From the NCBI RefSeq assembly GCF_947488135.1, contig NZ_CANKYW010000003.1:124001-188000 (forward strand): 64,000 nt of DNA, read 5' to 3'. Positions within the stretch are counted from its first letter, which is position 1, and each line of letters starts with the position of its first letter. This stretch comes from an uncultured Marivita sp. (lineage in GTDB: Bacteria > Pseudomonadota > Alphaproteobacteria > Rhodobacterales > Rhodobacteraceae). This document shows, in pieces, positions 40,827-60,816 of this stretch. The notes beneath the pieces were generated by a model. It had not been told where the DNA came from. It ran no database searches and saw only the letters and a list, made by a program, of their open reading frames with translations. A program made the translations under genes and the position numbers.

Positions 40827-40840
40827 TTGACAAAGGTCAA
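40827..40840. promoter_or_regulatory. FNR/FnrL-type box (distal)
   Basis: TTGAC-AAAG-GTCAA: a perfect 5-bp inverted repeat with the 4-base spacer of FNR/CRP-superfamily oxygen or NO sensors. It lies 217 bases before the stress-protein operon and 274 bases from the efflux adaptor, so its target is unclear. Confidence 0.65.
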
Positions 40841-40990
40841 TTGCCGAACAGGTCCGGAGTGCATCGACGTCGACCTCTGCGCGCGGGTTGCTTCCGGAGA
40901 ACGTCAGGTCGCAGGGACGCGCCGCGTCCCATCTGCCAGTCGGGGCCGGAGCGATAATCGGGATCGCGCCTTGCGCCGGAAGTCCGGCAA

Positions 40991-41004
40991 TTGATGAATG
41001 TCAA
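40991..41004. promoter_or_regulatory. FNR/FnrL-type box of the stress-protein/FtsH operon
   Basis: TTGAT-GAAT-GTCAA (TTGAC-ATTC-ATCAA on the other strand) is centred 59 bases before the ATG at 41057. A start of transcription about 41 bases downstream, near 41039, would place TAGACC near 41026-41031 as a -10. This is the class II FNR promoter geometry. Confidence 0.72.
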
Positions 41005-41056
41005 TCCCGACATGAAACGACGGGCTAGACCGCAATGACATTGCAGGAGCCTCGCC

Positions 41057-41632
41057 ATGATGGACGTACAGGATTCTCACCGGACCACTTACATCAACAT
41101 CCCCGAGGCTGTGGGGGTGTTCGACAGCTTCGAAACCTTGCAACAAGCGATCTACGATCTGCGCATGGCCGGATTCAGCCGCTATGACATCAGTCTTCTG
41201 GGCAGTAAGGAAACCATGACCGAGAAGCTTGGATCGGCCTATTGGCGTGCCGAGGATCTGGAAGACGATCCCAACGCCCCGCGGGCGGCCTTCGTGTCGG
41301 AGGAAGCGATTGGAGAACTGGAAGGCGCCATCGCAGGCGGTTTCTTCTTTCTTGGCTCCTACATCGCAATGGCCGCTATGCTGACACCCTTGTCGACGCT
41401 GGCGGCCTCAATCGCCGCGATCGCCATCGGGGGTGGACCTGCGGCTGTCGTCGGGGCGCTTCTGGCCCGACGGGTGGGAAAACACCACAAGGATTACTAC
41501 GCGCAACAGATCAGCAACGGTGGCATCCTCCTTTGGGTCAGGACGGTCGACAAGGAGCATGAGGACTTGGCCGTGAAGATCCTGAAAGGCCATTCGGGCC
41601 GGGATGTGCACGTACACGATTGGAGCGAATAG
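41057..41632 (+). CDS. Membrane protein with general-stress-protein-like N-terminal domain
   Basis: 191 residues. The N-terminus (VGVFDSFETLQQAIYDLRMAGFSRYDISLLG, residues 19-49) resembles the small alpha/beta domain of general stress protein 17M/YflT-like proteins. A hydrophobic hairpin rich in Gly/Ala follows (about 91-136), then a soluble tail that ends ILKGHSGRDVHVHDW. I do not recognise a named family with certainty. GGAG lies 7 bases before the ATG. It is the first gene of a six-gene + strand run with ferritin, HdeD, CMD and FtsH genes, behind a FNR-type box, so a role in stress at low oxygen is plausible. Confidence 0.8.
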   Translation: MMDVQDSHRTTYINIPEAVGVFDSFETLQQAIYDLRMAGFSRYDISLLGSKETMTEKLGSAYWRAEDLEDDPNAPRAAFVSEEAIGELEGAIAGGFFFLGSYIAMAAMLTPLSTLAASIAAIAIGGGPAAVVGALLARRVGKHHKDYYAQQISNGGILLWVRTVDKEHEDLAVKILKGHSGRDVHVHDWSE

Positions 41633-41676
41633 CGATCGACCATCGTGGATTTAATCAGAACGGAAAGGTCAGAAAG

Positions 41677-42159
41677 ATGAGCGACATCCAAAAGACACTT
41701 GAAAACCTGCAAACGGCCCTGTCGATGGAGCTCTCAGCGGTCAGCCAGTACCTCCATCACATCCTGACCACCGAGGATTGGGGCCTCGACAAGCTGGCCG
41801 AAAAGATGCGTGCCGAAATGCTCGAAGAGCTGGGCCATGCCGAGGAATACGCAAGACGGATGATCTTTCTCGGCGGCGTTCCCGAAATGAAACCGGCAAA
41901 GATACCGGCCCAGGCGCAATCCTTGCAGGACATGTTCGAAGCCGATCTGGCCGATGAAAAGGAGGCGATCAGCTTTTATTCCCGCGCCGCGCGGGAGGCG
42001 GATCAGGCCCATGACATCGGGACGCGCACATTGTTCGAGCGCACGGCAATGGACGAGGAAGGCCACATGGCGTGGTTGGACCTACAATTGTCGCTCTTGA
42101 ACCGAATGGGAGAACCGGCCTTCATCGCGATGCAAATCGGCCAGCCCAACGCTGAGTGA
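41677..42159 (+). CDS. Bacterioferritin-like ferritin lacking the haem methionine
   Basis: 160-residue four-helix ferritin-like protein. All ferroxidase positions of bacterioferritin align by number: Glu18, Tyr25, Glu51, His54, Glu94, Glu127, His130. The haem axial ligand Met52 of classical Bfr is Leu here (EELGHAEE), so the shell probably does not bind haem. It would oxidise and store iron, or detoxify peroxide, in the cytoplasm. GGAAAGG lies about 9 bases before the ATG. Second gene of the FNR-box operon. A Dps-like role is less likely given the exact Bfr residue spacing. Confidence 0.9.
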   Translation: MSDIQKTLENLQTALSMELSAVSQYLHHILTTEDWGLDKLAEKMRAEMLEELGHAEEYARRMIFLGGVPEMKPAKIPAQAQSLQDMFEADLADEKEAISFYSRAAREADQAHDIGTRTLFERTAMDEEGHMAWLDLQLSLLNRMGEPAFIAMQIGQPNAE

Positions 42160-42212
42160 CACGGCGCGTCTGCGATGATGTAAACGACCAAACTGAAGAG
42201 GGATGCAAATCC

Positions 42213-42770
42213 ATGGCCCATGACCCGAACGCCGACCCGAATGAAAGCGTGTTGCAGCGACTTCAAAAAATCTGGCTTTGGGTCGGGATCGTGATGATCG
42301 TCCTTGGGGCAGGGGCCTTGATCATGCCTGTGCTCAGTTCGCTGGTCATCGGCATCCTGATTGGCTGGCTGTTATTCATCAGTGGCGTGATAGCCGTGGC
42401 TTCGGCGTTTTCGGTTCGGGGCACCGGGCTGTTCGTATGGCAGCTTGCGGCTGGTCTGGTCCCGCTGCTGGCGGGCGCGTTGCTGATCGTGTACCCGGCG
42501 CAGGGGCTGATCGCGCTGACGCTTATCGTCGGCATCGTTTTCCTTTTGACCGGCGTTGCGCAGTCCTCTTTTGCGGTCTGGATGCGTCCGGCTCCCGGCT
42601 GGGGCTGGATGCTTGCTTCGGCCGTGGTGAGTATCGGGCTGGGTGTCTTCATTCTCGTCGCGCTTCCCGAAGCCTCGGCCGTGATGCTGGGCATCCTGTT
42701 CGGTTTCGATTTTCTGAGCACGGGTCTTGCCATGGTTTTGATAGCGACATCCGCCCGCCAAAATCCCTGA
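42213..42770 (+). CDS. HdeD family membrane protein (DUF308)
   Basis: 185-residue inner-membrane protein with six hydrophobic segments and the DUF308/HdeD repeat pattern (ALIMPVLSSLVIGILIGWLLFISGVIAVASAF; ALLIVYPAQGLIALTLIVGIVFLLTGVAQ). In enterobacteria HdeD contributes to acid resistance at high cell density. Here it lies in an operon with ferritin and FtsH and 20 kb from a glutamate decarboxylase, both behind FNR-type boxes. GAGGG precedes the ATG at 42213. Mechanism unknown for the family. Confidence 0.88.
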   Translation: MAHDPNADPNESVLQRLQKIWLWVGIVMIVLGAGALIMPVLSSLVIGILIGWLLFISGVIAVASAFSVRGTGLFVWQLAAGLVPLLAGALLIVYPAQGLIALTLIVGIVFLLTGVAQSSFAVWMRPAPGWGWMLASAVVSIGLGVFILVALPEASAVMLGILFGFDFLSTGLAMVLIATSARQNP

Positions 42771-42875
42771 TCGGGACAAATGATTGAATGCGGAGAGACC
42801 GGCGTCCAAACATGGTCTCGGCACCCCGCATGTGCATGGCGGGCGGAACCTCAAGGAAACGGAAAGGCGACTATC

Positions 42876-43232
42876 GTGAAAGACTATCAGACCATCGCCC
42901 GCGAATATCGTATGGGCTACGCCGATCTGGCGGCCGAGATCCCGGACCCGACCGCTGCCTTCGGGCGGTTGGTGATGGGCGCGACCGCAGGTGGGGCGCT
43001 GTCGACCAAAGTCAAGGAACTGATCGCGTTCGCCATTGCGATCTCGGTCCGGTGCGACGGTTGTATGGCGCATCACTCGCAGGCTGTCGTCAAGGCCGGT
43101 GCCACGCGGCGGGAAGTGGCCGAGATGATCGGCGTTGCCATTGTCATGGGAGGCGGTCCTGCTTCGGTTTACGGCGCTGAGGCTCTGCGCGCCTACGACG
43201 AAGCGGCAGGGTCCAAGTCCGCTTCGACATAG
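42876..43232 (+). CDS. Carboxymuconolactone decarboxylase family protein (AhpD-like)
   Basis: 118-residue CMD-domain protein with the AhpD-type redox motif: Glu48, then Cys60-x2-Cys63 and His66/His67 (RCDGCMAHH). Such proteins are thiol peroxidase/disulfide reductase partners rather than lactone decarboxylases. The start is GTG at 42876 with GGAAAGG 8 bases upstream. Position between the HdeD and FtsH genes suggests a redox-stress function. Confidence 0.88.
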   Translation: MKDYQTIAREYRMGYADLAAEIPDPTAAFGRLVMGATAGGALSTKVKELIAFAIAISVRCDGCMAHHSQAVVKAGATRREVAEMIGVAIVMGGGPASVYGAEALRAYDEAAGSKSAST

Positions 43233-43262
43233 GCATGTGGACCGGGGGAAGAGGAAGCCGCA

Positions 43263-45104
43263 ATGGAAAAGCGAAATCAATTCAACTGGGGCTTCTGGCT
43301 GATTGCGGCGCTTGTCTGGCTGGGGATACAGGCGTGGATCGGGTATCGTGATGTCGTGTCGATGTCTTACAGCGACTTCCTCGCCGCTCTCGAAGAGGGC
43401 AGCGTCGCCGAGTTGATTGTTACCGAAAGCATGATCGAAGGCAGCTTCACCACGCCGCGCGATGGCCGCGACCGCTTTATCGTGCATCGTGTGGACCCGG
43501 ATTTCGCGGAGCAGCTGGAGCAATACGATGTCTCCATCACCGGCGCATCTGACCAGACGTGGCTGACAACTCTGCTGTCCTGGTTTCTGCCGGTCTTGCT
43601 GTTCTTCGGCCTCTGGATGATCCTCATCCGTCGCATGTCAGGGTCGCAGGGGTTCGGAAGCCTCGTCAATATCGGCAAGTCGAAGGCCAAGGTCTACCTG
43701 GAGACGAAGACCGGCGTGACCTTTGACGATGTGGCCGGGGTCGACGAGGCCAAGGGCGAATTGCAGGAGATCGTCGCATTCCTCAAAGACAAGGAGAAAT
43801 ACGGTCGCCTCGGGGCGCATATCCCCAAGGGTATTCTGCTCGTGGGTCCGCCGGGAACCGGCAAGACGCTGCTGGCGCGCGCAGTGGCGGGCGAGGCGGG
43901 CGTGCCGTTCTTTTCGATCTCGGGATCGGAATTCGTCGAGATGTTCGTGGGCGTCGGGGCCGCCCGCGTGCGCGACTTGTTCGAACAGGCGCGTCAGGCC
44001 GCGCCCTGCATCATCTTCATCGACGAGTTGGACGCGCTTGGCCGCGCGCGCTCGGCCGTGTCGGGCTATGGCGGTGGCGACGAGAAGGAGCAGACGCTGA
44101 ACCAGCTTCTGTCCGAGTTGGACGGGTTCGACCCACGCGTGGGCATCGTCCTGCTGGCGGCGACCAACCGGCCCGAGGTGCTGGACGCGGCGCTTCTACG
44201 GGCAGGCCGCTTTGACCGGCAGATCGTCGTGGACCGGCCCGAGCGCAAGGGGCGTACGGCGATCCTGAAGGTTCATGCCAAGCGCGTGAAACTTGCCGCC
44301 GATGTCGATCTGGATCAGGTCGCCGCGATCACCGCAGGGTTTACCGGTGCCGATCTTTCCAATCTGGTCAACGAGGCGGCCATCGTCGCCACGCGGCGTG
44401 ACGGCGACACGGTGACGATGGAGGATCTGACGGCGGCGGTCGAACGGATCGTCGCGGGCGTTGAACGCAAGTCTCGGGTTCTGGGCACGGAGGAACGTGC
44501 GCGCGTCGCCCATCACGAGATGGGTCATGGGCTTGTCGCGGCGCACGTGGTGCATGCCGACCCGGTCCACAAGGTCTCGATCATTCCGCGTTCCATCGGG
44601 GCGCTTGGCTACACCATGCAACGCCCGACCGAGGATCGCTTTCTTATCACGTTTTCCGAGCTGAAGGACCGCATGGCCGTTCTCATGGCGGGCCGCGCGG
44701 CGGAGGAGTTGATCTTCGACGAGGTTTCGACCGGTGCCTCGGACGATCTGGCGAAGGCGACGGACATCGCCCGCGAATGCGTGACCCGCTTCGGGATGAC
44801 GGCGGAGGTCGGCCAGGCCGTTCTCGAGGACAAACCCGGCCAGTATCTTGACCAGCATGGTCCCATGTTGACGACCCGTGACTACGCGGAAGAAACGGCA
44901 CGGGAGATCGATCTTGCGGTGCGGGAATTGATTGAACAGGCTTACGAGCAGGCCAAATCCATCCTGGCCGCGCATCTGGCCGATCTCAAGACAGGGGCTG
45001 CCCTGCTGCTGGACCGCGAGACGATCACCCCGGAAAATTTTCCGCCGATTGCCCGCCGGTCGAAGATCGTTGCTGGCGCGGCAATTGTCGACCGGGCCGG
45101 TTGA
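43263..45104 (+). CDS. ftsH: ATP-dependent zinc metalloprotease FtsH (accessory paralogue)
   Basis: 613-residue membrane-anchored AAA protease that extracts and degrades membrane and regulatory proteins. Two membrane segments (about 11-28 and 102-122) flank a small periplasmic domain. The AAA module has Walker A GPPGTGKT (195-202), Walker [13 protein letters not shown] and the second-region-of-homology [14 protein letters not shown]. The zinc site is HEMGH (418-422), with the usual Ala replaced by Met, and the third ligand in [11 protein letters not shown]. It is shorter than housekeeping FtsH (about 640 residues) and sits in a stress operon, so I think it is an extra copy. Fifth gene of the FNR-box operon. 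Confidence 0.93.
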
Positions 45105-45135
45105 TCGGGTTCAGGATCAACAGAGGAGACACGCA

Positions 45136-45714
45136 ATGAGCGACAGAATATCCGGCCTTGTCCAGCGCATCCGTGATCTGGAAAGCGAGCTTGAGGAAGA
45201 GATCGACCGTCGGCGTGCCGCCTTCGAATACACGGTCGAAAAGCGCCGGGTCGTTTTCGAGACAGAGGTCAGGGAGCGCCATCGCGCATTGCGGCAGACG
45301 CTGACCTCCTATCTCTCCGAGGCCCGCCCGATGGTCATCCTGACGGCGCCGGTCATCTATTCGGTTATCGTACCGCTGGTCTTGCTCGATCTTTTCGTAA
45401 CGCTCTATCAGGCGATCTGTTTTCCGGTTTACCGGATCGAAAAGGTGCGCCGTGCCGATTACGTCTCGATCGACCGTCGTCATCTGGCCTATTTGAACGG
45501 CCTTGAAAAACTGAATTGCGTCTACTGTGGCTACGGCAACGGCCTTCTGGCCTATGCGTCCGAGATTGCCGCCAGAACCGAAGCTCATTGGTGCCCGATC
45601 AAGCACGCAGCGCGTATGAAAGGCACCCACGCGCATTACGCCGGTTTTCTCGATTATGGCGATGCCGAAGGGTACAAGCAGAAAAAACGCGAACTGCGCG
45701 AAAGCACGCGATGA
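45136..45714 (+). CDS. Membrane protein with coiled coil and CxxC/CxxxH zinc-binding tail
   Basis: 192 residues, family not recognised. Residues about 5-62 form a highly charged coiled coil (LESELEEEIDRRR). One or two membrane segments follow (67-98, MVILTAPVIYSVIVPLVLLDLFVTL). The C-terminal part has Cys128-x2-Cys131, then Cys153 and His157, a plausible zinc-ribbon. GAGGAG precedes the ATG. It lies 31 bases behind ftsH; the stop region of ftsH contains a TTGATC/GATCAA stem. A substrate adaptor or regulator of FtsH is one possibility, but this is only inferred from position. Confidence 0.75.
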   Translation: MSDRISGLVQRIRDLESELEEEIDRRRAAFEYTVEKRRVVFETEVRERHRALRQTLTSYLSEARPMVILTAPVIYSVIVPLVLLDLFVTLYQAICFPVYRIEKVRRADYVSIDRRHLAYLNGLEKLNCVYCGYGNGLLAYASEIAARTEAHWCPIKHAARMKGTHAHYAGFLDYGDAEGYKQKKRELRESTR

Positions 45715-45717
45715 TCT

Positions 45718-45745
45718 GCACCCGACCCTGACTCGGATCGGGTGC
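45718..45745. terminator. Possible bidirectional terminator between convergent units
   Basis: GCACCCGA (45718-45725) and TCGGGTGC (45738-45745) form a perfect 8-bp stem with a 12-base loop between the convergent zinc-finger and universal-stress-protein genes. No T-run follows on either strand, so it may slow polymerase or protect mRNA ends rather than terminate. Confidence 0.5.
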
Positions 45746-45775: not shown

Positions 45776-46630
45776 TCAATGCGCCAGGAATACGGGTTGA
45801 TCCCTCTGATCGATCAGTGTTCGCGTGGTGCCACCGAACAGAGCCTCGCGCGCACGGGAATGGCTGTAGGCGCCCATGACGATCAGATCGGAACCGATCT
45901 CTCCGGACCGCTCGAGAATGCACTGCCCGACATCGTGGCCGCCAGAGGGATACTGCTGGACGGTCACATTGCACCCATGATGCGTGAGCCATTTCGCGAC
46001 ATCGACACCAGGGTCTTCCCCGGAACGGTCTTCGTTCATGACCGGGTCGATGATCCCGATTGTGACCTCTTGGGCCGCGCGCAGAAGGGGCAAAGACTGA
46101 TGAACCGCACGCGCCGTATGCAGGTGCGTCGTCCAGGCGACAAAGATACGCTTCGGCCGATCAAGTGTCGCGGCCGCCGCGTCGTTCAATAGAACGCCGA
46201 CTGGAGATTGGAAGAGCACGCCGTGAACAACCTCCCGAAACAGCGCGTCGGTATCGCGCAGATCGTCGCTGATTAACGCGATGTCGCTTACCATAGCGTG
46301 TTGTGCGACTGCGTCGGAAATGCGCGATGGATCGGTCGAAACAACGCTTACACCGCCAGTGACATCGTGTTTCTCAAGAAGCTCTTCGATCGCGTCCTGT
46401 TTGGCTTTCAGATCGGATTTGGTCTTGGCCAGGGCGTCTTGCCACTCCGAGGGAATGCTCACCTCTCCATACGGGGGCACACCAATGGCGTAGTAAGGAA
46501 ACTGCGGCACCTCGCCGACGACAACAATGGCAACCTGTGCCGGGATCGCCCGAATGGTTTCGAGTTTGTCGGCCAAAGCATCCATCGAGACTTGCTTGCC
46601 GACGGCAATCAGTACGGTGCTGTCTTTCAT
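45776..46630 (-). CDS. Tandem-domain universal stress protein (UspA family)
   Basis: 284 residues with two Usp domains (about 1-145 and 150-284). The second ends in MGAYSHSRAREALFGGTTRTLI, a variant of the Gly-rich ATP loop. Double-Usp proteins are typical survival factors in starvation and anoxia. I take the ATG at 46630, with GGGAG 8 bases upstream; a TTG at 46636 is in frame. It has its own FNR-type box and a good -10 in class II spacing, so induction at low oxygen is likely. Confidence 0.9.
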   Translation of the reverse strand: MKDSTVLIAVGKQVSMDALADKLETIRAIPAQVAIVVVGEVPQFPYYAIGVPPYGEVSIPSEWQDALAKTKSDLKAKQDAIEELLEKHDVTGGVSVVSTDPSRISDAVAQHAMVSDIALISDDLRDTDALFREVVHGVLFQSPVGVLLNDAAAATLDRPKRIFVAWTTHLHTARAVHQSLPLLRAAQEVTIGIIDPVMNEDRSGEDPGVDVAKWLTHHGCNVTVQQYPSGGHDVGQCILERSGEIGSDLIVMGAYSHSRAREALFGGTTRTLIDQRDQPVFLAH

Positions 46631-46655
46631 TTTCAATCTCCCTACCGTCTAAGCC

Positions 46656-46696
46656 TGTATAAACCGAGCGCCACCCTGCCGTTTGACATTCGTCAC
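46656..46696 (-). promoter_or_regulatory. Class II FNR-type promoter of the universal stress protein gene
   Basis: Box TTGAC-ATTC-GTCAC (46683-46696, one mismatch in the dyad). On the - strand a -10 TATACA lies at 46661-46656, giving a predicted start near 46649 and a box centre about 41 bases upstream, the exact geometry of FNR-activated class II promoters. Confidence 0.75.
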
Positions 46697-46814: not shown

Positions 46815-47240
46815 TCAAACAGGCTCGGATTTCGCCGACTTTGTTGCACTTTTCGCACTGGCGACGGTTTCATCCACCGCCTCGACTTCGTTCGAGATCA
46901 CGGCGGCGGCGCAGCCTGTCATCATGGCAAGGTAGTCCCGCGCATCCTCGGCAAGACGCTCCATGGAATGAGTTTGCCATTCTGCGAGGATACTCATCGC
47001 AGCCATCGGATCGCCCATTGAACGCTCGGCCAATTTCTTGGTGGCGTCCAGTGCGCTTTGAGTGGCCTCGTGGCGGCGTTTGAACCAGGCTTCCGAGAAT
47101 GCCTCGCACTCCTTGAGAACGGTATCCTGCGCTTTCCAGAAGTGGGCGCCTTGAGACCCTGCCGCCGGTATCGCCGTAGCAAATGATTGCGTTGATTTCG
47201 CAAATTGCTCCAAGGTCTTGACTGCTGTGCTCAATTCCAC
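46815..47240 (-). CDS. Phasin family protein (PHA granule-associated)
   Basis: About 141 residues, helical and amphipathic, with a phasin-like core (FWKAQDTVLKECEAFSEAWFKRRHEATQSALDATKKL in outline; MERLAEDARDYLAMM) and an Ala/Ser/Lys-rich tail. Phasins coat polyhydroxyalkanoate granules; the PHA synthase gene is 6.7 kb away in the same island. The ATG at 47249 directly abuts AGGAGG (plus positions 47250-47255) with no spacer, whereas the GTG at 47240 is 9 bases from it, so I choose GTG. A perfect FNR-consensus box lies upstream. Confidence 0.82.
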   Translation of the reverse strand: MELSTAVKTLEQFAKSTQSFATAIPAAGSQGAHFWKAQDTVLKECEAFSEAWFKRRHEATQSALDATKKLAERSMGDPMAAMSILAEWQTHSMERLAEDARDYLAMMTGCAAAVISNEVEAVDETVASAKSATKSAKSEPV

Positions 47241-47347
47241 AAGCTTCATCCTCCTGCATGTTCAAATTCGTTGAAAGACACGACAGGACGGGCCGCAGCG
47301 CGACTCGACTGCCTGAAGGTATCGTATCAAATCCGCACGGCCCTGTT

Positions 47348-47361
47348 TTGATTAACATCAA
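47348..47361. promoter_or_regulatory. Perfect FNR-consensus box of the phasin gene
   Basis: TTGAT-TAAC-ATCAA matches the FNR consensus TTGAT-N4-ATCAA at every fixed position. It is centred about 108-114 bases before the phasin start. On the - strand GATACGAT (47328-47321) lies about 30 bases downstream of the box centre and could be the -10. Confidence 0.78.
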
Positions 47362-47457: not shown

Positions 47458-48903
47458 TCACTCTGCCTGCGCGCTTGCGCTTGATCGCGACACCGAAGCC
47501 CACCCGCTCCCCGTTGCGATCTGCAATGCCAGCCATTCGGACGCGGATTGTTGCACCGCTTGCGCCAGACCGACACGCGCTTCGGTCAGCGTCAGTTCGG
47601 CCGAAAGCAGGTCCAAAAGCGGGATGGCCCCGTCCTCGAAGGCGCGTTCGGTCAAGGTGAAGGCCGTGCGCGTTGCAGAGACTGCCTCCTGCAACTGGCT
47701 GACCCGCCGCCGCGACAATCTATAGGCGCTTTGGGCCGTCTGAACATCCCGTACCGCGCCGAGAACGGACGCGCGCCACGCCGTTTCGGCCTTCTGCGCA
47801 GTGGCTTTGGCTGCATCACGCCGGGCCGTCAGCGCGCCGCGGTTGAAGACGGGAAGCGCGAGACTCGGACCGAACAGCGATGCATCGAGACTGTCTGACG
47901 CCGAAATGGTCCCACTGAGCGTGAGCGTGGGATAGAGCTGTGCCTCGGCGACGCCGATGGCGGCGACGGCCGAAGCGTAGCGCCGTTCGGTCGCGCGGAT
48001 GTCGGGACGGTTGCGCAACAGGTTGGCGGGCGTTCCCACTTGCGGTGCGCTGCGTGGGATCGGCTGCGGTGCGCCCGCCTGCAAGGTCTTGATCAACGGT
48101 TCTGCCGGTTCCGACAGAAGTGCGGCAATGCCATAGACATTCGCCAGAAACGCGGATTCAAGGCTGGGTTGCTCCGCCGATACGCTGGCAAGCTGCGCCT
48201 TGGCCCGAGCCACGTCGAGTTCGGCAGCTTGGCCAAGGCTGCGTTCGCGTTCGACGATCCGAAGGATACGGGTGTTGTCGACGATGGATTGGCGCGTCAG
48301 TTCAAGAGTTTCCTGGAAATACCGCGCGTCGATATAGGCCCCGACGAGGCTCGACAGATAGGCCAGCCGTGCGGTGCCCACATCCAGTTCGGCCGCCTCG
48401 AGCCCGGCAAGGGCCGCTTCCTGTCGGCGGTCCATGCCCGCAAGGGCCGTACCGGCACTCAGAGTGGCGGAGCGGACCTGATCCGGGATGATGCCAAGCG
48501 CATCCTCGCTGACATCAACGCCTGTCACCGAGGCTCTGACGCCGCCGCTGATCTGATTTCCGAGACCCGCCGCGCGCGCGTTGGCCCGGGCTTCGTCGAC
48601 GGCTTGCAAGGCGGCTGTGACGCTGAGGTTTTGCGCAAGGCCGCGTGCCACGAGATCGTTCAATTTTTGGTCGCCAAGCTCGGTCCACCAGCGCGATACG
48701 GCAACATCACCTGTTTGCGCCGCAGCGTTTTCGGCAAAGCTGTCCGTCAGTGTGATGGTGGGTGGCACATAATCAGGACCAATACCGCTGCATGCCGCAA
48801 GGCCGGACAGGGACGCCAGCAGAAAGCCCCGTCTGTCCCAAGATGCGACATGGGCTGAAACCTGGTCGGGGCCGTCGGGCATCTCTCTGAAGTCGCCCTT
48901 CAT
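47458..48903 (-). CDS. Outer-membrane efflux factor (NodT family), Tat-like lipoprotein leader
   Basis: 481-residue TolC-type channel with two OEP repeats (TARLAYLSSLVGAYIDARYFQETLELTRQ in outline; RNRPDIRATERRYASA; GAIPLLDLLSAELTLTEARVG). The N-terminus has about 22 hydrophilic residues, then DRRGFLLASLSGLAAC: a twin-arginine-type leader with a lipobox, unusual for this family. It lies 27 bases behind ackA at the end of the PHA/Pta-Ack gene run, with no pump of its own nearby on this strand. It could serve the divergently transcribed HlyD-RbbA-YhhJ exporter at 55.9-60.8 kb, which lacks a channel. Confidence 0.88.
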   Translation of the reverse strand: MKGDFREMPDGPDQVSAHVASWDRRGFLLASLSGLAACSGIGPDYVPPTITLTDSFAENAAAQTGDVAVSRWWTELGDQKLNDLVARGLAQNLSVTAALQAVDEARANARAAGLGNQISGGVRASVTGVDVSEDALGIIPDQVRSATLSAGTALAGMDRRQEAALAGLEAAELDVGTARLAYLSSLVGAYIDARYFQETLELTRQSIVDNTRILRIVERERSLGQAAELDVARAKAQLASVSAEQPSLESAFLANVYGIAALLSEPAEPLIKTLQAGAPQPIPRSAPQVGTPANLLRNRPDIRATERRYASAVAAIGVAEAQLYPTLTLSGTISASDSLDASLFGPSLALPVFNRGALTARRDAAKATAQKAETAWRASVLGAVRDVQTAQSAYRLSRRRVSQLQEAVSATRTAFTLTERAFEDGAIPLLDLLSAELTLTEARVGLAQAVQQSASEWLALQIATGSGWASVSRSSASAQAE

Positions 48904-53125: not shown

Positions 53126-53896
53126 TCACGCGATCACGTGATAGCCGCCGTCGACATGGGTGATTTCGCCTGTCACCTTGGCCGAGAGATCACTGAAGAG
53201 GGCGGTGGCCGCATGTCCGATGTCGTCGAGCGTCACGAGGCTGCGTTCCGGCGCCCGTCTGCGGGCGTCGTCGATCAGTGCATCGAAATGCGCGATGCCC
53301 GACCCTGCGCGCGTCTGAACCGGACCGGGAGAGAGGGCGTTCACCCGGATCTGTTGCGGGCCAAGTTCGGCGGCGAGGTAGCGGACCGTGCCCTCGAGCG
53401 CGGATTTGACCGGACCCATGATGTTGTAATTGTCCACGACCTTTTCCGCGCCGTAGTAGCTCATCGTCAGGATGCTGCCGCCGTTCTGCATCAAGGGCAC
53501 GGCGGCCCGGGTCAGGCGAATGAGCGAATGAACCGAGATGTCCATGGCCCGCGCAAAGCCTTCTTTCGAGCATTGGCTGACAGGGCCATGGAGGTCGTCC
53601 TTCGGGCAGAAAGCGATTGAATGGAGCAGGAAATCCAGTTGGCCCCATTCGGCTTGAATGGCATCGAAGACGGCGGTCATTTCTCCGTCCTGCTCCACAT
53701 CCAGTGGCAGAAAGATCGATGCCTCCAAACCTTCGGCGACGGGCGCGACATAGGGTTTCGATGTCGTGTTGGCGTAGGTGACGGCAAGCTCGGCACCGGC
53801 GGCGCGGAGAACCCGCGCGCAGCCCGCCGCGATGGAATGCTCGTTGGCGATCCCCACGACCAGGCCGCGTTTGCCCTTCAGAAGTGTCCCCGACAT
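53126..53896 (-). CDS. fabI: Enoyl-ACP reductase (FabI family)
   Basis: 256-residue FabI-type reductase of the SDR superfamily that reduces enoyl-ACP with NADH. The cofactor motif is the FabI form GIANEHSIAAG, and the active site is SYYGAEKVVDNYNIMGPVKSALE (Tyr and Lys). Length is usual. It starts 6 bases after phaC, so it belongs to the same mRNA. A FabI in a PHA/fermentation operon may be a second copy that uses reducing power under oxygen limitation, whereas the housekeeping copy would be elsewhere. Confidence 0.92.
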   Translation of the reverse strand: MSGTLLKGKRGLVVGIANEHSIAAGCARVLRAAGAELAVTYANTTSKPYVAPVAEGLEASIFLPLDVEQDGEMTAVFDAIQAEWGQLDFLLHSIAFCPKDDLHGPVSQCSKEGFARAMDISVHSLIRLTRAAVPLMQNGGSILTMSYYGAEKVVDNYNIMGPVKSALEGTVRYLAAELGPQQIRVNALSPGPVQTRAGSGIAHFDALIDDARRRAPERSLVTLDDIGHAATALFSDLSAKVTGEITHVDGGYHVIA

Positions 53897-53902
53897 CTGC
53901 CG

Positions 53903-55747
53903 TCACTCTTGAAAAACGTAAGTGCCGGGCGCATCGCAGAGCGGCGGATAGCCGGTGTCCTTCGACCCCAGCGGCGGAGGCGGTACCGGATCGCCCGAGC
54001 GCGCGGCCAGCCAATCGGTCAAGGCGGGCCACCAGGACCCGTCTGTGACAGGCGTTTCCGCCATCCACCGATCCGGGCTGATATAGGGCGCATCTTCGGC
54101 GCGCGTCGCGATGCGGTAATGGCGATGCGGGTGGCCGGGTTCCGAAACGATGCCCGCATTATGCCCTCCGCTGGTCAGAACGAAGGTCACATCGGTGTCC
54201 GAGAGCAGATGGAACTTGTAGACCGAATGCCAAGGCGCAACATGGTCGCGTACTGTTCCGACACAGAACACCGGCGCGCGGATATCCGAGACGGTCACAG
54301 GCGCATCGCCGACCGTGTAGCGCCCTTCGGCAAGATCATTGTCGAGATAGAGTTTGCGCAGGTATTCAGAGTGCATTCGATAGGGCATGCGCGTGGCGTC
54401 TGCGTTCCACGCCATGAGGTCGATCATTGGCGTGCGTTCGCCCATCAAGTAATCGTGGATCATATATGACCAGATGAGGTCGTTCGACCGCAAAAGCTGA
54501 AACGTTCCGGCCATTTGGGTCGTGTCCAGATACCCCTGGTTCCACATCATGTCCTCGAGAAAGGTGAGCTGGCTGTCATTGATGAAGAGCTGCAACTCGC
54601 CCGCTTCCGTGAAGTCCGTCTGCGCGGCGAGAAGCGTCAGGGTCTTTAGACGCGCATCACCGTCGCGTGCCATGGCCGAAGCCGCGATGGACAGCAGCGT
54701 GCCGCCAAGGCAGTAGCCGATGCCGTGCATCTTGTCGCTCGCGGCGATGGTCTGCGCGGCGTCGAGCGCCGCCATCACCCCCTGAGACAGGTAATCGTCC
54801 ATGCCGAGATCGCGGTCCTCGGCATCGGGGTTTCTCCAGGAAACCATGAAGACGGTGAAGCCCTGATCGGTCAGGAAACGGACAAGCGAATTCTCCTCGC
54901 TCAGATCGAGAATGTAATATTTCATGATCCAGGCGGGCACGATCAGGATCGGCTCGGGCCGGACCGTGTCGGTCGTCGGCGCATATTGGATCAACTCGAT
55001 CAGATGGTTGCGATAGACGACTTGTCCGGGGGAGGTGGCAAGGTTGCGCCCGACCTCGAACGCCTCGGCCCCTACGGGCTTTGCACCGTTGGTTGCGCGA
55101 AGGGCATCTTCCATGAAGTTCTGCCAACCGCGCACCAGATTCCATCCGCCTTCGCGCAGCGTCTTGTGCAGGACTTCCGGGTTGGTCGCGATGGAATTGG
55201 CCGGTGAAAACACGTCGAGCATCTGGCGCGCGGCGAATTCGACGACGTTTTCATGCTGTTTGGTCATTCCGTCGACCCCGGTCGTGGCATTGTGCCACCA
55301 CTGCTGGTTTAGCAGAAAGCTCTGATGGATCACGTTCCAGGGCCATGTCTGCCACGCCTCGCCGCGAAAGCGTTTGTCCTGAGGCAAGGGGTCGATGCAG
55401 GTCTGCGGGGTCTCCGGATGAGCGGCGCAAAAGGCGGCGTATCTGGCCAGTTTGCCGGTCTTCTTCGCGGCCTTCTCGACCAGTTGCAGCTGCTTGCCCG
55501 GTGCTGTTGCGAGATGCAACGCCCAATCGGTGTAGGCCGCAGCCAACGCGATCGGCGAAAGACCCGCCGTGAACTTCGCAACCGCGGCTTTCAGCCCCTT
55601 GTCCAACGCCTCTTCCATGCTGGTATGCGCGTGCGGCAGCCGACCGATGTCCGAAACGGGAAGCGCTGCAGGCGATACGTGCTGCGCGACCTCGGGCAAA
55701 GCTGTTGCGACAGCCGGTCCTTCCTCGTGTTTTGCTGGGCGTGCCAT
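53903..55747 (-). CDS. phaC: Class I poly(3-hydroxyalkanoate) synthase
   Basis: 614-residue PHA synthase that polymerises 3-hydroxyacyl-CoA on granules. The lipase-like box is GIGYCLGG with the catalytic Cys near residue 346. PWIMKYYILDL comes before it; the Asp and His of the triad lie in the conserved later blocks (DHVAPWHSVYK; TSGGHNAGIV). Class I length with a slightly long N-terminus. GAAGGA precedes the ATG. First gene of a seven-gene - strand run; a perfect FNR-type dyad 87 bases upstream is shared with the divergent HlyD operon. Confidence 0.95.
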   Translation of the reverse strand: MARPAKHEEGPAVATALPEVAQHVSPAALPVSDIGRLPHAHTSMEEALDKGLKAAVAKFTAGLSPIALAAAYTDWALHLATAPGKQLQLVEKAAKKTGKLARYAAFCAAHPETPQTCIDPLPQDKRFRGEAWQTWPWNVIHQSFLLNQQWWHNATTGVDGMTKQHENVVEFAARQMLDVFSPANSIATNPEVLHKTLREGGWNLVRGWQNFMEDALRATNGAKPVGAEAFEVGRNLATSPGQVVYRNHLIELIQYAPTTDTVRPEPILIVPAWIMKYYILDLSEENSLVRFLTDQGFTVFMVSWRNPDAEDRDLGMDDYLSQGVMAALDAAQTIAASDKMHGIGYCLGGTLLSIAASAMARDGDARLKTLTLLAAQTDFTEAGELQLFINDSQLTFLEDMMWNQGYLDTTQMAGTFQLLRSNDLIWSYMIHDYLMGERTPMIDLMAWNADATRMPYRMHSEYLRKLYLDNDLAEGRYTVGDAPVTVSDIRAPVFCVGTVRDHVAPWHSVYKFHLLSDTDVTFVLTSGGHNAGIVSEPGHPHRHYRIATRAEDAPYISPDRWMAETPVTDGSWWPALTDWLAARSGDPVPPPPLGSKDTGYPPLCDAPGTYVFQE

Positions 55748-55827: not shown

Positions 55828-55841
55828 TTGACATTCGTCAA
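55828..55841. promoter_or_regulatory. FNR/FnrL-type box shared by the phaC and hlyD-rbbA operons
   Basis: TTGAC-ATTC-GTCAA is a perfect dyad in the 194-base gap between the divergent phaC (55747) and HlyD (55942) starts. For phaC, TAGCAA on the - strand (55806-55801) gives a start near 55794 and a box centre about 41 bases upstream. On the + strand a start near 55876 would have the same spacing, with a weak -10. Confidence 0.75.
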
Positions 55842-55941
55842 TCTCCGGATCGGTGCGGATGGCACATGAAAGCCAAGCGAAAAGGCGCTCGGCTGATCGG
55901 TCGCCTGATGTCGAGGGCGCAAGAATGATGGGTAACGAACA

Positions 55942-56922
55942 ATGAAGCAGATTTGGCCGATCCTCGTGATCGCTGTGTTGGGTGCAGCAGGGGCGGGCGC
56001 CTATTGGTGGCAAAATGCCGTGGCCTCGGCGCTGCCCGATGGGATCAGCGCGTCCAACGGCCGGATCGAAGCCGAGCGGATCGAAATCGCCACCCGCCTT
56101 GCTGGGCGTATTGCCGAAGTGCTTGTGGACGAAGGCGATTGGGTTGAAGCCGGGGATCTGATCGCCCGGATGGACACGCTTGAACTCGACGCCCAGTTGC
56201 ACGCAGCTCAGGCCGCGGTGCGCCAGGCGGAGCAGCAGGAGCTTCAGGCAGAGGCCCTGTTGCGCCAGCGCCGGTCCGAGCTTGTGACTGCGCAGGCCGA
56301 ATTCGACCGGGTGGCCAAATTGTCCGATGACGGGTTCTTCAGTGAGGCGCAGGCGGATGCGCAACGCACCGTTCTGGAGACAGCACAGGCGGCGGTTGCG
56401 GCGGCGGAAGCGGGCATTTCCCTCGCCGAAGCGACGATTGCGGCCGCCGAGGCATCGGTCGAAAGACTCCAATCCTTGATCGACGACGCCAGCCTGACCG
56501 CGCCGCGGGCCGGACGTGTGCAATACGTCCTGGCGCAGGAAGGCGAGGTTCTGGGGGCAGGCGGGCGCGTGGTGACGCTCACCGACCTGTCGGACATGTA
56601 TATGTCTATTTTCCTGTCCACGGGGGACGCGGCAAGGCTGGCCATCGGTGACGAGGCCCGGATCATTCTGGATGCTATCCCCGACTATGTGATCCCGGCC
56701 ACCGTGACGTTTGTTGCGAGCACGGCGCAATTCACGCCGCGCTCTGTCGAGACGGCGGATGAGCGCACGCAACTGATGTTCCGGGTCAACCTGACGATCG
56801 CCCCGGAGATTTTGGCGGAATATCAGGACCGCGCACGCGCAGGCGTTCCCGGGATGGGCTATGTCCGTGTAGATCAAAGCATCGAGTGGCCCGACGATCT
56901 TGCCGTCAACCTGCCGCAATGA
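55942..56922 (+). CDS. HlyD family periplasmic adaptor (YhiI/YbhG-like)
   Basis: 326-residue membrane-fusion protein. One N-terminal membrane anchor (about 4-22), the split lipoyl domain (RIEIATRLAGRIAEVLVDEGDWVEAGDLIARMD and SLTAPRAGRVQYVLAQEGEVLGAGG in outline) around an Ala/Glu-rich coiled coil (about 70-180), then a barrel. It pairs with the ABC genes that follow; its stop overlaps the next start as ATGA. Together they form an adaptor-ABC export system that needs an outer-membrane channel. Confidence 0.92.
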   Translation: MKQIWPILVIAVLGAAGAGAYWWQNAVASALPDGISASNGRIEAERIEIATRLAGRIAEVLVDEGDWVEAGDLIARMDTLELDAQLHAAQAAVRQAEQQELQAEALLRQRRSELVTAQAEFDRVAKLSDDGFFSEAQADAQRTVLETAQAAVAAAEAGISLAEATIAAAEASVERLQSLIDDASLTAPRAGRVQYVLAQEGEVLGAGGRVVTLTDLSDMYMSIFLSTGDAARLAIGDEARIILDAIPDYVIPATVTFVASTAQFTPRSVETADERTQLMFRVNLTIAPEILAEYQDRARAGVPGMGYVRVDQSIEWPDDLAVNLPQ

Positions 56923-59651
56923 CATCTTCTGTCGTTTCCTTATCCGGCGTCACTCATCGCTACGGCGAGATCGCGGCGCTGGAAAACGTTAGCCTCGATG
57001 TGCCCGCCGGCTGCATGGCCGGTCTGATCGGGCCGGACGGCGTAGGCAAATCGACATTGCTGGCGCTCTCGGCCGGGGTTCGGCGGTTTCAGACCGGGGA
57101 TCTGCAGGTCTTGGGCGGCGACATCCGTTCGCCGCACCATCGCAAGGCCTGCACGCACCGCATCGCCTACATGCCGCAGGGGCTGGGGCGAAACCTCTAT
57201 CCGACGCTGACGGTCGCCGAGAACCTCGATTTCTTCGGCAGGCTCTTTGCGCAGCCCGCCGCTGAACGCCGGGCCCGCATCGCGGATCTGTTGCAGGCGA
57301 CGGGCCTTGACCCATTTCCCGACCGTCCGGCGGGCAAGCTTTCCGGGGGCATGAAGCAGAAACTGTCGCTCTGCTCTGCGCTGATTCACGACCCCGATCT
57401 TCTGATCCTCGACGAGCCGACGACGGGGGTTGACCCTCTGTCGCGGCAGCAGTTCTGGGACCTGATCGACCGCATCCGTGAAGGCCGTCCCGACATGAGC
57501 GTGATCGTCGCGACCGCCTATATGGAAGAGGCCGAGCGGTTCGATTGGCTGGCGGCCATGTCGGATGGGCAGGTGATCGCGACCGGATCGCCGGCCGAGT
57601 TGCGCGAGCGGACCGGACAGGAGACCCTCGACGGGGCCTTCATCGCCATGCTGCCCGAAGCCGCCCGGGCCGGTCACGAAGAGGTGCGCGTTCCCCCCTT
57701 CGCGCCCACCAGCGACGGCCCGGCGGTCGAAGCAAAGGCGCTGACGCGGAAGTTCGGCGATTTCACCGCCGTCGACAACGTCGATTTCAAGATCGCGAAG
57801 GGTGAGATTTTCGGCTTTCTGGGCTCCAATGGCTGCGGCAAGACGACGACGATGAAGATGTTGACTGGCCTGCTGCCCGCGAGCAGCGGCGAGGCGCTTT
57901 TGTTCGGTGAGCCCTTGGACGCAGGCGATATGGCGACCCGCCAGCGCGTTGGGTACATGTCGCAGTCCTTCTCGCTCTATAGCGAGTTGACCGTGCGCCA
58001 GAACCTTGACCTGCATGCAGATTTGTATCGATTGCCCAAGGAAACGCGGGCAGGTCGGGTGGCGGAGATGCTGGAGACGTTCGAACTGGTCGAGGAGGCG
58101 GATGAGCGGCCGGAGTCTTTGCCGCTGGGGCTGCGGCAGCGCCTGCAATTGGCCGTCGCGGTGATCCACAGCCCCGAGGTGCTGATCTTGGATGAACCGA
58201 CATCGGGGGTCGATCCCGTTGCGCGCGATGCCTTCTGGCGGCTTCTGGTCGGGCTGTCTCGTGAACAGGGCGTCACGATCTTTGTTTCGACCCATTTCAT
58301 GAACGAGGCCGAACGCTGCGACCGGATTTCGCTGATGCATGCGGGGCGTGTTTTGGCGATCGGCAAGCCGGACGAGATCGTTGCCGCAAAAGGCGCGACC
58401 AGCCTGAACGACGCCTTCATCAGCTACCTTCGTGAGGCGGATGCGGACGGGGACGCACCGCTCGGGGAGACGGCGCAACCTGTCGGGGCCGTTCCCGCGC
58501 ACCGGGCCGACAGCCGTGACCGCCTGTTCGACCCCGCCCGAATGTGGGCCTTCGCCCGGCGCGAGACGACGGAAATCCTGCGCGACCCGCTGCGGCTCGC
58601 TTTTGCCTTGCTCGGGCCGGTGATCCTGATGTTGACCTTCGGCTACGGCATCTCATTTGATGTGGAAGACCTGCCATATGCCGTGGCCGATCAGGACCAA
58701 ACAGCCGAAAGTCGAGAGCTTTTGCGGGCCTTTTCAGGATCGCGGTTTTTCGAAGAGCAATCCCCCGCCGCCGACACCGAGGATCTGGACGCCCGCCTTC
58801 GTGCGGGCGAGATCGCCATCGCCATCGAGATCCCGTCGGGTTTCGGGCGCGCGTTGCTGAAAGGTGAGACCCCGGAGGTCCGCGTCGCGCTCGACGCCGC
58901 CATGCCCTTCCGCGCCGAAACCGCGCGGGGTTATCTACAGGGATTGGCCTTGTCCTACATGGAAAGCCAAGTCGAGCAGACCTACGGCGAGGTCGTCGAT
59001 ACCTCCGGTGCCGGGATCGAAACGCGCTACCGCTACAACCAATCCTTTCAAAGCGTGAACGCCATGGTGCCCTCGGTCATCATGATGATGTTGGTGCTGA
59101 TCCCGTCGATGATGGCCGCGATGGGGGTGGTGCGAGAAAAGGAAACCGGGGCGATTGCCAATTTCCGTTCCACCCCGGTGACGCGGGGCGAGTTTCTGCT
59201 GGGTAAGCAACTTCCCTATGTCGTCATTGCGCTCATCAGCTTCGTGACGCTTCTGGCGATGTCTTATCTGGTGTTCGACGTTCCGATCAAAGGCTCTGTC
59301 GCGGCGTTGTTCCTCGGCACGTTCATCTACATTCTTGCGACGACAGGCTTCGGTGTCCTCGTCTCCACCTTCACCAAGACACAGGTCGCCGCGACCTTCG
59401 CGACCGCCGTCATCGCCATCATCCCGGCGGTCAACTTCTCGGGGTTGCTCGTTCCGGTCTCGTCGCTGTCCGGCGGCGCACGCCTGTTTGGCCTTGGCTT
59501 CCCGGCGGCGTGGTACCAGCAGATCAGCATCGGCACCTTTACCAAAGGGCTGGGCTTTGCCGAGCTTTGGGTGAACCACGTCGCCCTGGCCGTCTTCGCG
59601 GTCCTGTTTGTGGCGGCGTCCATCCTGCTGCTCAAGAAACAAGAGGCGTAA
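56919..59651 (+). CDS. rbbA: ABC transporter with two ATPase domains and ABC-2 permease (RbbA-like)
   Basis: 910 residues in the RbbA/YhiH order: ATPase 1 (Walker A GPDGVGKST at 38-46, signature LSGGMKQKLS, Walker B LLILDEPTTGVD), ATPase 2 (Walker A GSNGCGKTT at 302-310, non-canonical signature LPLGLRQRL, VLILDEPTSGVD), and a C-terminal ABC-2 membrane domain with six segments (NAMVPSVIMMMLVLIPSMMA; GAIANFRSTPVTRGEFLLGK). ATPase 1 has TAYMEEAE where a His is usual, as in RbbA itself; ATPase 2 keeps STHFMNEAE. E. coli RbbA is reported to associate with ribosomes; here the operon context favours export. Coupled to the HlyD gene by ATGA. Confidence 0.92.
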   Translation: MTSSVVSLSGVTHRYGEIAALENVSLDVPAGCMAGLIGPDGVGKSTLLALSAGVRRFQTGDLQVLGGDIRSPHHRKACTHRIAYMPQGLGRNLYPTLTVAENLDFFGRLFAQPAAERRARIADLLQATGLDPFPDRPAGKLSGGMKQKLSLCSALIHDPDLLILDEPTTGVDPLSRQQFWDLIDRIREGRPDMSVIVATAYMEEAERFDWLAAMSDGQVIATGSPAELRERTGQETLDGAFIAMLPEAARAGHEEVRVPPFAPTSDGPAVEAKALTRKFGDFTAVDNVDFKIAKGEIFGFLGSNGCGKTTTMKMLTGLLPASSGEALLFGEPLDAGDMATRQRVGYMSQSFSLYSELTVRQNLDLHADLYRLPKETRAGRVAEMLETFELVEEADERPESLPLGLRQRLQLAVAVIHSPEVLILDEPTSGVDPVARDAFWRLLVGLSREQGVTIFVSTHFMNEAERCDRISLMHAGRVLAIGKPDEIVAAKGATSLNDAFISYLREADADGDAPLGETAQPVGAVPAHRADSRDRLFDPARMWAFARRETTEILRDPLRLAFALLGPVILMLTFGYGISFDVEDLPYAVADQDQTAESRELLRAFSGSRFFEEQSPAADTEDLDARLRAGEIAIAIEIPSGFGRALLKGETPEVRVALDAAMPFRAETARGYLQGLALSYMESQVEQTYGEVVDTSGAGIETRYRYNQSFQSVNAMVPSVIMMMLVLIPSMMAAMGVVREKETGAIANFRSTPVTRGEFLLGKQLPYVVIALISFVTLLAMSYLVFDVPIKGSVAALFLGTFIYILATTGFGVLVSTFTKTQVAATFATAVIAIIPAVNFSGLLVPVSSLSGGARLFGLGFPAAWYQQISIGTFTKGLGFAELWVNHVALAVFAVLFVAASILLLKKQEA

Positions 59652-59652
59652 G

Positions 59653-60780
59653 GTGACACGCTGGCTCTTCAATATCTGGCTGCTGGGGGTGAAGGAGTTG
59701 CGCAGCCTGCTGGCCGACCCGATCCTGCTCTTGCTGGTGGCCTATATGTTCAGTGTCGCGATCTATGCCGTGGCAACTGGCGCGCGGACTGAAGTGCGCA
59801 ACGCCGCCGTGGCTTATGTGGATCTCGATCAATCCGGTCTGACCGGGCGGATTGTCGAAGCCATCCTGCCGCCCGAGTTCGAAGCCCCACAAGGGATCGA
59901 TCTCTCAGAGCTGGAGCAGGTGATGGACAGCGGCGATTTCGTCTTTGTCCTGTCCTTTCCACCACGGTTCGAGGCCGATGTTATCGACGGAAATTACCCG
60001 TCCGTGCAGCTGAACGTCGATGCGACGGCGATGACGCAGGCGGGGAATGGCGCAATTTATCTTCAGGAAATCATCACCGCCGAAGTGACCCGTTTCATCA
60101 CCGGCGATGATACTGCCAGCAGCCTTCCGATCGATCTGGTGGTCACGGCGCATTTCAACCCGAACCTGCAATCCATCTGGTTCACATCTGTCATGCAGAT
60201 CATCAACAACGTCACCATTCTGGCCGTCCTGCTGACGGGCGCGGCCCTGATCCGCGAACGCGAGCACGGCACGATCGAGCATCTTCTGGTCATGCCTGTG
60301 AATGCCTCCGAGATCATGCTGGCGAAGATTTGGGCCAATGGCCTCGTGATCGTCATCGGTGCGGTCTTGTCGCTCTGGCTCGTGGTGCAGGGGGTCCTTC
60401 AGGTGCCGGTGGCCGGGTCCATCCCGCTCTTCGTGGCGGGAACGGTGCTCTATCTGGTTGCGGTCACGGGACTTGGCATTCTGCTGGCCACCTTCACGAC
60501 GTCGATGCCGCAATTCGGTCTGCTGGTCATCCCGGTTCTCGTGATCATGAATCTGTTGTCGGGCTCCACGACACCGATGGAGAGCATTCCGGTCTGGTTG
60601 CAGACCATCATGCAGGCCTCGCCCTCGACCCATTTTGTCGCCTTTGCACAAGCGATACTCTACCGCGGCGCGGGGTTGGAGACGGTTTGGACGGATATGG
60701 TGGTTATGGCGTCGCTGAGCGCTTTTTTCTTCGCAGTTTCGCTCCTGCGGTTCCGTCAGACGATGGCGACGAGCCAATAA
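59653..60780 (+). CDS. yhhJ: ABC-2 type permease (YhhJ-like)
   Basis: 375-residue membrane protein of the YhhJ/YbhS type: one N-terminal helix, a large periplasmic region (about 45-170), then five or six helices with EHGTIEHLLVMPVNASEIMLAKIW and LLSGSTTPMESIPVWLQTIMQASPSTHFV. It is the second permease of the HlyD-RbbA system. The start is GTG at 59653, one base after the RbbA stop codon's last base, with AAGAGGCG upstream. The HlyD-RbbA-YhhJ trio as in E. coli yhiI-rbbA-yhhJ. Confidence 0.9.
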   Translation: MTRWLFNIWLLGVKELRSLLADPILLLLVAYMFSVAIYAVATGARTEVRNAAVAYVDLDQSGLTGRIVEAILPPEFEAPQGIDLSELEQVMDSGDFVFVLSFPPRFEADVIDGNYPSVQLNVDATAMTQAGNGAIYLQEIITAEVTRFITGDDTASSLPIDLVVTAHFNPNLQSIWFTSVMQIINNVTILAVLLTGAALIREREHGTIEHLLVMPVNASEIMLAKIWANGLVIVIGAVLSLWLVVQGVLQVPVAGSIPLFVAGTVLYLVAVTGLGILLATFTTSMPQFGLLVIPVLVIMNLLSGSTTPMESIPVWLQTIMQASPSTHFVAFAQAILYRGAGLETVWTDMVVMASLSAFFFAVSLLRFRQTMATSQ

Positions 60781-60802
60781 CCTTCCCGATATGTCCTTCG
60801 GA

Positions 60803-60816
60803 TTGATGATCGTCAA
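60803..60816. promoter_or_regulatory. FNR/FnrL-type box of the glutamate decarboxylase unit
   Basis: TTGAT-GATC-GTCAA is centred 79 bases before the ATG at 60889, in the 108-base gap behind the YhhJ gene. A second dyad, CTGATGATCAG, lies at 60864-60874 just before the gene. I cannot identify a clear -10. Confidence 0.68.

Follow-up and report, generated by a model that had tools for sequence, protein, structure and literature searches.

A compact gene island with clustered FNR-type boxes and its own FixK-like regulator gene in an uncultured Marivita species

Introduction

Which regulator of the FNR superfamily reads a cluster of FNR-type boxes lying in front of energy-storage, fermentation and stress genes? 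For alphaproteobacterial sites this assignment is hard, since those of FNR, FixK and DNR look alike (PMC2908626, available text). The question is raised by a stretch of 64,000 nucleotides, hereafter the window (contig C3, positions 124001-188000), from the genome of an uncultured Marivita sp. with an assembly of 4.468 Mb in 41 contigs. According to the original prediction, six boxes of the type TTGAY-N4-RTCA(A/C) mark every transcription unit of a 23-kb stress island and place it under an FNR-superfamily regulator, either FnrL or Dnr/Nnr, responding to low oxygen or NO. We analysed boxes, genes and candidate regulators in this genome, including L042, the stretch continuing past the window, and in the genomes of relatives labelled G096, G101, G116, G125, G134 and G189 (C denotes a contig; unlabelled positions are those of the window).

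Boxes and genes of the island

A pattern scan of the window returned 11 strand hits for TTGAY-N4-RTCA(A/C) at six places and none elsewhere in the window, compared to a mean of 0.64 and a maximum of 4 strand hits in 100 dinucleotide shuffles. All six boxes are intergenic according to the list of open reading frames, scan and list agreeing with the predicted positions and with the lack of a match in the first 40 kb. Five of the six are full palindromes, the box at 46683 having a terminal C. Rfam gave no match within the window at gathering score.

The first operon, encoded on the plus strand behind a box at 40991..41004 (plus strand) with its centre 59.5 bp before the ATG, comprises the genes of a 191-aa protein lacking Pfam and NCBIfam matches (41057..41632), a ferritin-like protein (41620..42159, reading frame as listed; bacterioferritin model under cut-off), an HdeD-like DUF308 protein (42156..42770), a carboxymuconolactone decarboxylase (CMD)/AhpD-like protein (42780..43232) and the protease FtsH (43263..45104), the last four being supported by Pfam/NCBIfam. 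Between ftsH and usp a plus-strand reading frame of ~194 aa shows no Pfam/NCBIfam match (45130..45714). The genes of a Usp-type protein (45776..46636; Pfam Usp just under cut-off) and of a phasin (46815..47249; Pfam Phasin_2 just under cut-off) are on the minus strand, as are their boxes at 46683..46696, an imperfect palindrome with the final C, and at 47348..47361. The minus strand further encodes an outer-membrane efflux protein (OMF; 47458..48903), acetate kinase (AckA; 48931..50175), a MaoC-phosphate acetyltransferase (Pta) fusion (50172..51569), a thiolase (51904..53091) and a FabI-like enoyl reductase (SDR; 53126..53896), all with Pfam/NCBIfam matches, and a class I-like PHA synthase PhaC (53903..55747; under NCBIfam cut-off).

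The box at 55828..55841 lies between the divergent genes phaC and hlyD, the latter encoding an HlyD-type adaptor (55942..56922) and being followed on the plus strand by rbbA (56886..59651; ABC-ABC-permease, NF033858 with 1463 bits at a cut-off of 1050) and an ABC-2 permease gene (59608..60780); adaptor and permease were assigned by Pfam/NCBIfam. The ABC genes predicted as an exporter are present, their identity being that of an RbbA-type HlyD-RbbA-permease set. A second hlyD of this genome, with an RbbA relative, is located at C1:4615-5577. The box at 60803..60816 (plus strand) precedes the glutamate decarboxylase gene gad (60889..62271, plus strand; Pfam/NCBIfam match) and the gene of an AspT-type antiporter (62153..64000, plus strand; aspartate-alanine antiporter model under cut-off), which runs off the window and ends at L042:4138.

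Beyond the window, the antiporter gene is followed in L042 by the gene of an amino-acid permease, those of arginine deiminase, ornithine carbamoyltransferase and an amino-acid/carbamate kinase, an SDR gene, an operon for a second F1F0 ATPase and the genes of a Crp/Fnr regulator (P0001, the product of fixK) and of a TPR protein. The ATPase beta subunit has as its top model the alternate F1F0 ("N") ATPase with 731 bits, under the cut-off of 752, and passes the general AtpD model (593 bits, cut-off 463). With its start at 41.0 kb of the window and its end at C3:203 kb, the island measures ~38 kb instead of the predicted 23 kb, and the cluster reaches C3:203098, ~15 kb beyond the window end. Inside the window boxes do precede all apparent operons; past its end, fixK and the TPR gene divergent from it are boxless. 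Because fixK and its neighbour lack a box and have a different conserved dyad in common, a box at every transcription unit was too strong a claim.

In the whole 4.47-Mb genome the palindrome TTGAYN4RTCAA occurs 28 times, the reversed control pattern 5 times per strand. Seven of the 28, namely five in the window, one at C3:188184 and one at C3:203085, lie within the 38 kb of C3:164827-203098, where 0.24 are expected. A uniform-placement scan gave p = 1e-5 for this cluster (200,000 trials), the span being picked post hoc and gene structure being ignored, and we therefore put more weight on the relatives. Such boxes were not found at equal density elsewhere, the comparison covering the whole genome with intergenic and genic DNA together. 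The boxes are of the FNR-superfamily type and enriched here over the rest of the genome, supporting the prediction of one coherent FNR-superfamily regulon of the low-oxygen type.

Conservation of the island in relatives

Much of the island, together with clustered boxes, is found again in two other genera, and parts of it in two more. Using 32 proteins of the Marivita stretch as queries (one, the RND adaptor, from outside the island) and counting hits with 38% identity over 40% of the length, we obtained matches for 21 queries in G134, 17 in G189, 10 in G101 and 7 in G125, FixK of G125 being just outside the threshold at 38% identity. The arrangement of the common genes is largely kept. No match was present for ferritin or AckA in the G134 stretch, for FtsH, Usp, phasin, OMF, thiolase or FabI in the G189 stretch, and for glutamate decarboxylase, AspT or the permease in both.

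The palindromes cluster in G134 (8 of 31 in 26.6 kb) and in G101 (6 of 9 in 23.9 kb), each with 0 of 200,000 simulations, and weakly in G189 (4 of 39 in 16.4 kb; scan p 0.029), and the 60-kb island stretch of G125 holds 1 of 23 genome-wide. One of the eight G134 boxes (C8:373501) is inside the carbamate kinase gene, the remaining island palindromes being outside matched genes. Boxes are found at aligned positions before the 191-aa gene in three genera (Marivita, G134 and G189), between phaC and hlyD in Marivita and G189, with G134 being one letter off, and near usp and phasin in Marivita and G134. The incomplete genome G096 has a box before an hlyD 81% identical to that of Marivita, and G116, for which no P0001 homolog is listed, carries the island-like core TTGACGAACGTCAA before hlyD; altogether, a palindrome precedes hlyD at 8 of 30 loci.

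Upstream of the 191-aa gene the palindrome is present at 12 of 27 readable family loci, at 9 of 24 readable loci when only other family members are counted and at 3 of 28 loci on the class level; two of the 29 family rows (L100, L121) and one of the 28 class rows (L068) were unreadable. As a marker of the island this gene was rejected, since in 19 of 20 family stretches (~19 kb on the island side, two being shorter) it is not accompanied by a further island gene at thresholds of 38% identity and 40% length, the exception being G539 with a Pta relative. In G189 the 191-aa gene (C5:68610-69172) is read in two overlapping frames and may be frameshifted. Another cluster of FNR-type palindromes, in G125 (C12:329223-358023), is accompanied by two genes of the Crp/Fnr-like type and by a relative of PhaC; it was set aside as an island counterpart as it has other genes and other cores. 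Among plasmids, 68 records matched; in the 20 matches listed it is mostly pieces of rbbA, ftsH or pta that align, coverage of the query is 18% at best and none reaches 80%. The regulator matched 79 plasmid records, all under 60% identity.

Promoter spacing

In the islands of Marivita, G134 and G189, 12 of 38 box-directions have a TA located precisely 21 bp behind the box, whereas the remaining 49 offsets have 0.47 on average. The binomial p for offset 21 (2.5e-14) overstates the case because several of the promoters are orthologous and one (G134 28943, minus strand) has no gene assigned to it. The Marivita promoters with this spacing are those of the 191-aa gene, the phasin gene (as TANNNT), phaC, on whose side only the box at 55828 has the TA, and the one at L042:19171; usp shows it as well, its imperfect palindrome being outside the 38. 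The TA is absent at gad, the arginine operon and hlyD. In G101 and G125, none of 14 box-directions has a TA at offset 21 and two have one at offset 22. At class II FNR-activated promoters the box is centred near -41.5. The spacing of 21 bp would fit such an arrangement at part of the promoters.

The palindromic box at 40827..40840 exists as predicted; as an operon box it did not hold up, lacking a TA at 21 bp in either direction, being far from both gene starts and being unmatched at the corresponding alignment position of G134 and of G189. Just before the island are genes of an RND efflux-type pump and its adaptor (36258-40673, minus strand), to which this box has no promoter spacing.

The regulator encoded in the island

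The regulator P0001 is encoded near the far end of the island on the minus strand (L042:16371-17147, corresponding to C3:200371-201147). Its top match in the PDB is FixK2 (4i2o, E 9.9e-21), with FNR at 1e-12 and DNR at 7e-7, and the FixK model scores under its cut-off. Cysteines occur in the open frame only at positions 112, 113 and 224, the N-terminal Fe-S cysteines being absent. The FixK subfamily is defined as comprising those members of the FNR-FixK lineage in which at least one of the four Fe-S cysteines is missing (PMC2908626, available text). We read P0001 as a putative FixK, lacking these cysteines and placed in the FNR-FixK lineage by its best matches, i.e. the FixK2 structure and the FixK model under its cut-off. 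The recognition helix is of the E..SR type, with MESVSR in Marivita, LETVSR in G101 and G125 and EAVSR in G134; ESVCR of G189 departs at the Ser. The cysteine in the sequence LPMCRRDIG aligns with FixK2 chain position 183, at which the crystallised 4i2o protein carries a Ser as a C183S variant (PMC9104804, available text). In the alignment, a Cys is present at this position in Marivita, G189 and G134 and a Thr in G101 and G125.

Homologs of P0001 at E <= 1e-20 were found in five of 198 family genomes, Marivita included, and all five are beside island genes, fixK being linked to island genes in five genera. No FNR box is present before the Marivita fixK within two mismatches. FixL-like kinases and FixJ-like regulators are encoded within the G101 island region and, in G125, by neighbours of fixK, the kinases matching FixL PAS structures at ~1e-30 to 1e-33 with the NCBIfam FixL model as best model, under its cut-off. 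In the 120 kb around the Marivita island no FixLJ pair was found, apart from a kinase/regulator pair of weak similarity near 90-92 kb, and no FixL or FixJ was found in the island stretches of G134 and G189. In these three genomes the neighbour of fixK is the divergent gene of a TPR protein (L042:17393-19012 in Marivita) having a weak match to HilA/EilA (3e-5) and an N-terminal segment that looks winged-helix-like by eye. Between both genes lies the perfect dyad GACTCAC-A-GTGAGTC (C3:201329-201343), in the alignment the clearest conserved block of this intergenic region. The dyad GAYTCAC-N-GTGARTC has its sole exact copy here in Marivita, at C8:381365 in G134 and at C5:40341 in G189; it is absent from G101 and G125 even with one mismatch, and their stretches hold no match for the TPR protein.

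Candidate readers of the boxes

The boxes are probably activator sites, mostly near -41, of one low-oxygen survival regulon with the island FixK as main reader. All seven island palindromes of Marivita have an A/T-A/T centre, versus 1 of the 21 outside (p = 6.8e-6, post hoc). In G134 and G189 together the counts are 8 of 12 in the islands versus 7 of 42 outside (p = 0.0017; outside cores of 19 of 35 sites used for G189), and the G101 island has none among six. Reading of the open reading frames at eight loci of Marivita showed that some of the outside boxes lie at a cco-like gene divergent from a usp-like one, at a ccoG-like gene and at hemN/fnrL.

Among 19 HTH_Crp_2 matches in Marivita, 11 of them over the cut-off, we read the helices of nine Crp/Fnr proteins. 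Just two of these, LETVSR of FnrL and MESVSR of the island FixK, are FNR-like, a third helix, AREVISR, being Crp-like. G101 has 15 matches, 9 over the cut-off, with 7 clear Crp/Fnr proteins, three of which have E..SR helices. Two of these are in a Crp-like R-E-V-x-S-R context and FixK alone has the FNR-like LETVSR, making FixK the likeliest reader in G101. A Crp/Fnr-like gene of Marivita at C1:1011064-1011696 (L183) contains one internal TAA, and a similar gene on C13 has none.

An alternative that we regard as rather unlikely is that the island is part of the FnrL regulon, with FnrL binding the boxes directly and FixK as a side player. FnrL is encoded by a separate gene of Marivita (C1:236.6 kb; Rhodobacter-type FnrL model of NCBIfam, 461 bits, cut-off 300), has its cysteines and is present in G134, G189 and G125 as well; its score suggests a Rhodobacteraceae-like family. 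The sites bound by FNR, FixK and DNR have been described as all but identical (PMC2908626, available text), and FnrL of D. shibae directly activates usp genes (PMC5398030, available text). The boxes at 9 of 24 readable 191-aa loci elsewhere in the family, compared to P0001 homologs in 5 of 198 genomes in a search covering part of the genomes holding those loci, suggest that boxes of this kind can probably also serve FnrL or a different regulator. However, an FnrL ortholog is missing from G101, where the best match has 28% identity, and yet G101 keeps 6 of its 9 boxes in the island, which argues for FixK as reader, as does the linkage of fixK to island genes in five genera. FnrL, named in the original prediction, is only one candidate, because the island encodes its own FixK-type regulator and the box cores differ from those of the 21 other palindromes in Marivita. 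From sequence, we predict the island FixK as a more likely reader than FnrL, and FnrL may also bind some of the island sites. Points that weigh against FixK as main reader are the presence of FnrL in four of these genomes, the G116 core in front of hlyD, the lack of the A/T core in G101, the G134 box within a gene, the missing TA at some promoters of Marivita and in all box-directions of G101 and G125, the boxless fixK and the absence of a FixLJ pair from the 120 kb around the Marivita island.

Control by a NO sensor of the DNR/NnrR type, the other part of the original prediction, is very improbable. Its candidate would be the Crp/Fnr protein L023 with the helix TTLHTVSR, which is reminiscent of NnrR. 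The FNR/FixK/DNR helix has a Glu that is missing from L023, and NCBIfam gives this protein no NO-sensor name; NnrR proteins are said to differ at this Glu position, and DNR sites look alike (PMC2908626, available text). By reading, no denitrification genes are among the reading frames of window 38-64 kb and L042, and NO/Dnr control is unsupported with the FNR-like helix confined to FnrL and the island FixK among the nine proteins read. That the boxes are chance or relic sequence, their cluster reflecting gene content only, would fit the missing promoter spacing of box 40827 and several gene/box pairs, the intragenic box of G134 and the span chosen after the fact, and is likewise very improbable given the clusters in other genera, the aligned positions and the TA spacing.

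Discussion

A block of energy-storage, fermentation and stress genes with boxes at most promoters and its own adjoining FixK-like gene suggests joint induction at low oxygen. We propose a model according to which falling oxygen would lead to FixK being made and/or to reduction of its LPMCRRDIG cysteine, and the FixK dimer would bind the boxes and activate the operons via class II contacts. Pta-Ack and arginine deiminase-carbamate kinase could then supply ATP by substrate-level phosphorylation, the alternate F1F0 ATPase might use ATP for ion pumping, PHA could serve as a sink for electrons and carbon, glutamate decarboxylase could consume protons, and Usp, HdeD, FtsH and ferritin would provide protection. 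More tentatively, the island might be a portable, self-wired unit for anaerobic survival in which the FixLJ oxygen input is replaced, the HilA-like TPR protein possibly sensing stress and acting at the dyad and a cysteine-gated FixK driving the A/T-core boxes apart from FnrL. We connect TPR protein and dyad because each of the three TPR-carrying genomes has a single exact copy of the dyad, G101 and G125 have none, and it is the clearest conserved block between the two genes.

FixK is described as being in general confined to Rhizobiales, and conservation of its reactive cysteine as limited to Bradyrhizobium, Nitrobacter and Rhodopseudomonas (PMC2908626, available text). A Cys at the equivalent position of a protein from a Rhodobacteraceae-like family would extend this range. 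With the targets lying close to the gene of a FixK-type regulator and with the cluster being kept in G101, which has no FnrL ortholog, the assignment of sites to a regulator becomes testable. In open-licence PMC we found no literature treating RbbA and FixK together or joining four of FixK, Rhodobacteraceae, arginine deiminase, polyhydroxyalkanoate and anaerobic, and the N-ATPase is absent from the related literature among the matches listed.

Three known systems resemble the island. The Burkholderia cenocepacia lxa locus, by description a large locus activated at low oxygen with universal stress proteins, is a lead only, the main text of its description not mentioning phasin, FNR or acetate kinase (PMC6127331). 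The FnrL regulon of Rhodobacteraceae (R. sphaeroides, D. shibae) shares the TTGAY-N4-RTCAA boxes and usp targets (PMC2908626, PMC5398030, available texts), and Marivita has, as in this regulon, an fnrL gene and boxes at cco-like and hemN/fnrL genes. In contrast, among the core FNR targets compared in the available texts only usp recurs in the island, the box core differs in Marivita and the regulator is a separate one. The third is the FixK2 regulon of Bradyrhizobium diazoefficiens, with a FixK-type regulator and with the cysteine of FixK2 position 183 present in P0001 and the G134 and G189 homologs. Among its microoxic targets, which are partly clustered, are phaC2 and genes of a universal stress protein, of acetate/propionate kinase, of an HlyD-ABC set and of an RND adaptor (PMC9104804, Table 2, available text). 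They are spread over several genome loci and many of their boxes have CTG cores (PMC9104804, available text), whereas here targets and regulator are in one 38-kb block, which includes arginine deiminase, the N-ATPase and gad, and the stretches of Marivita, G134 and G189 have no FixLJ beside them. FixK2 targets of like kind are already known in B. diazoefficiens; new is the compact island with its own FixK.
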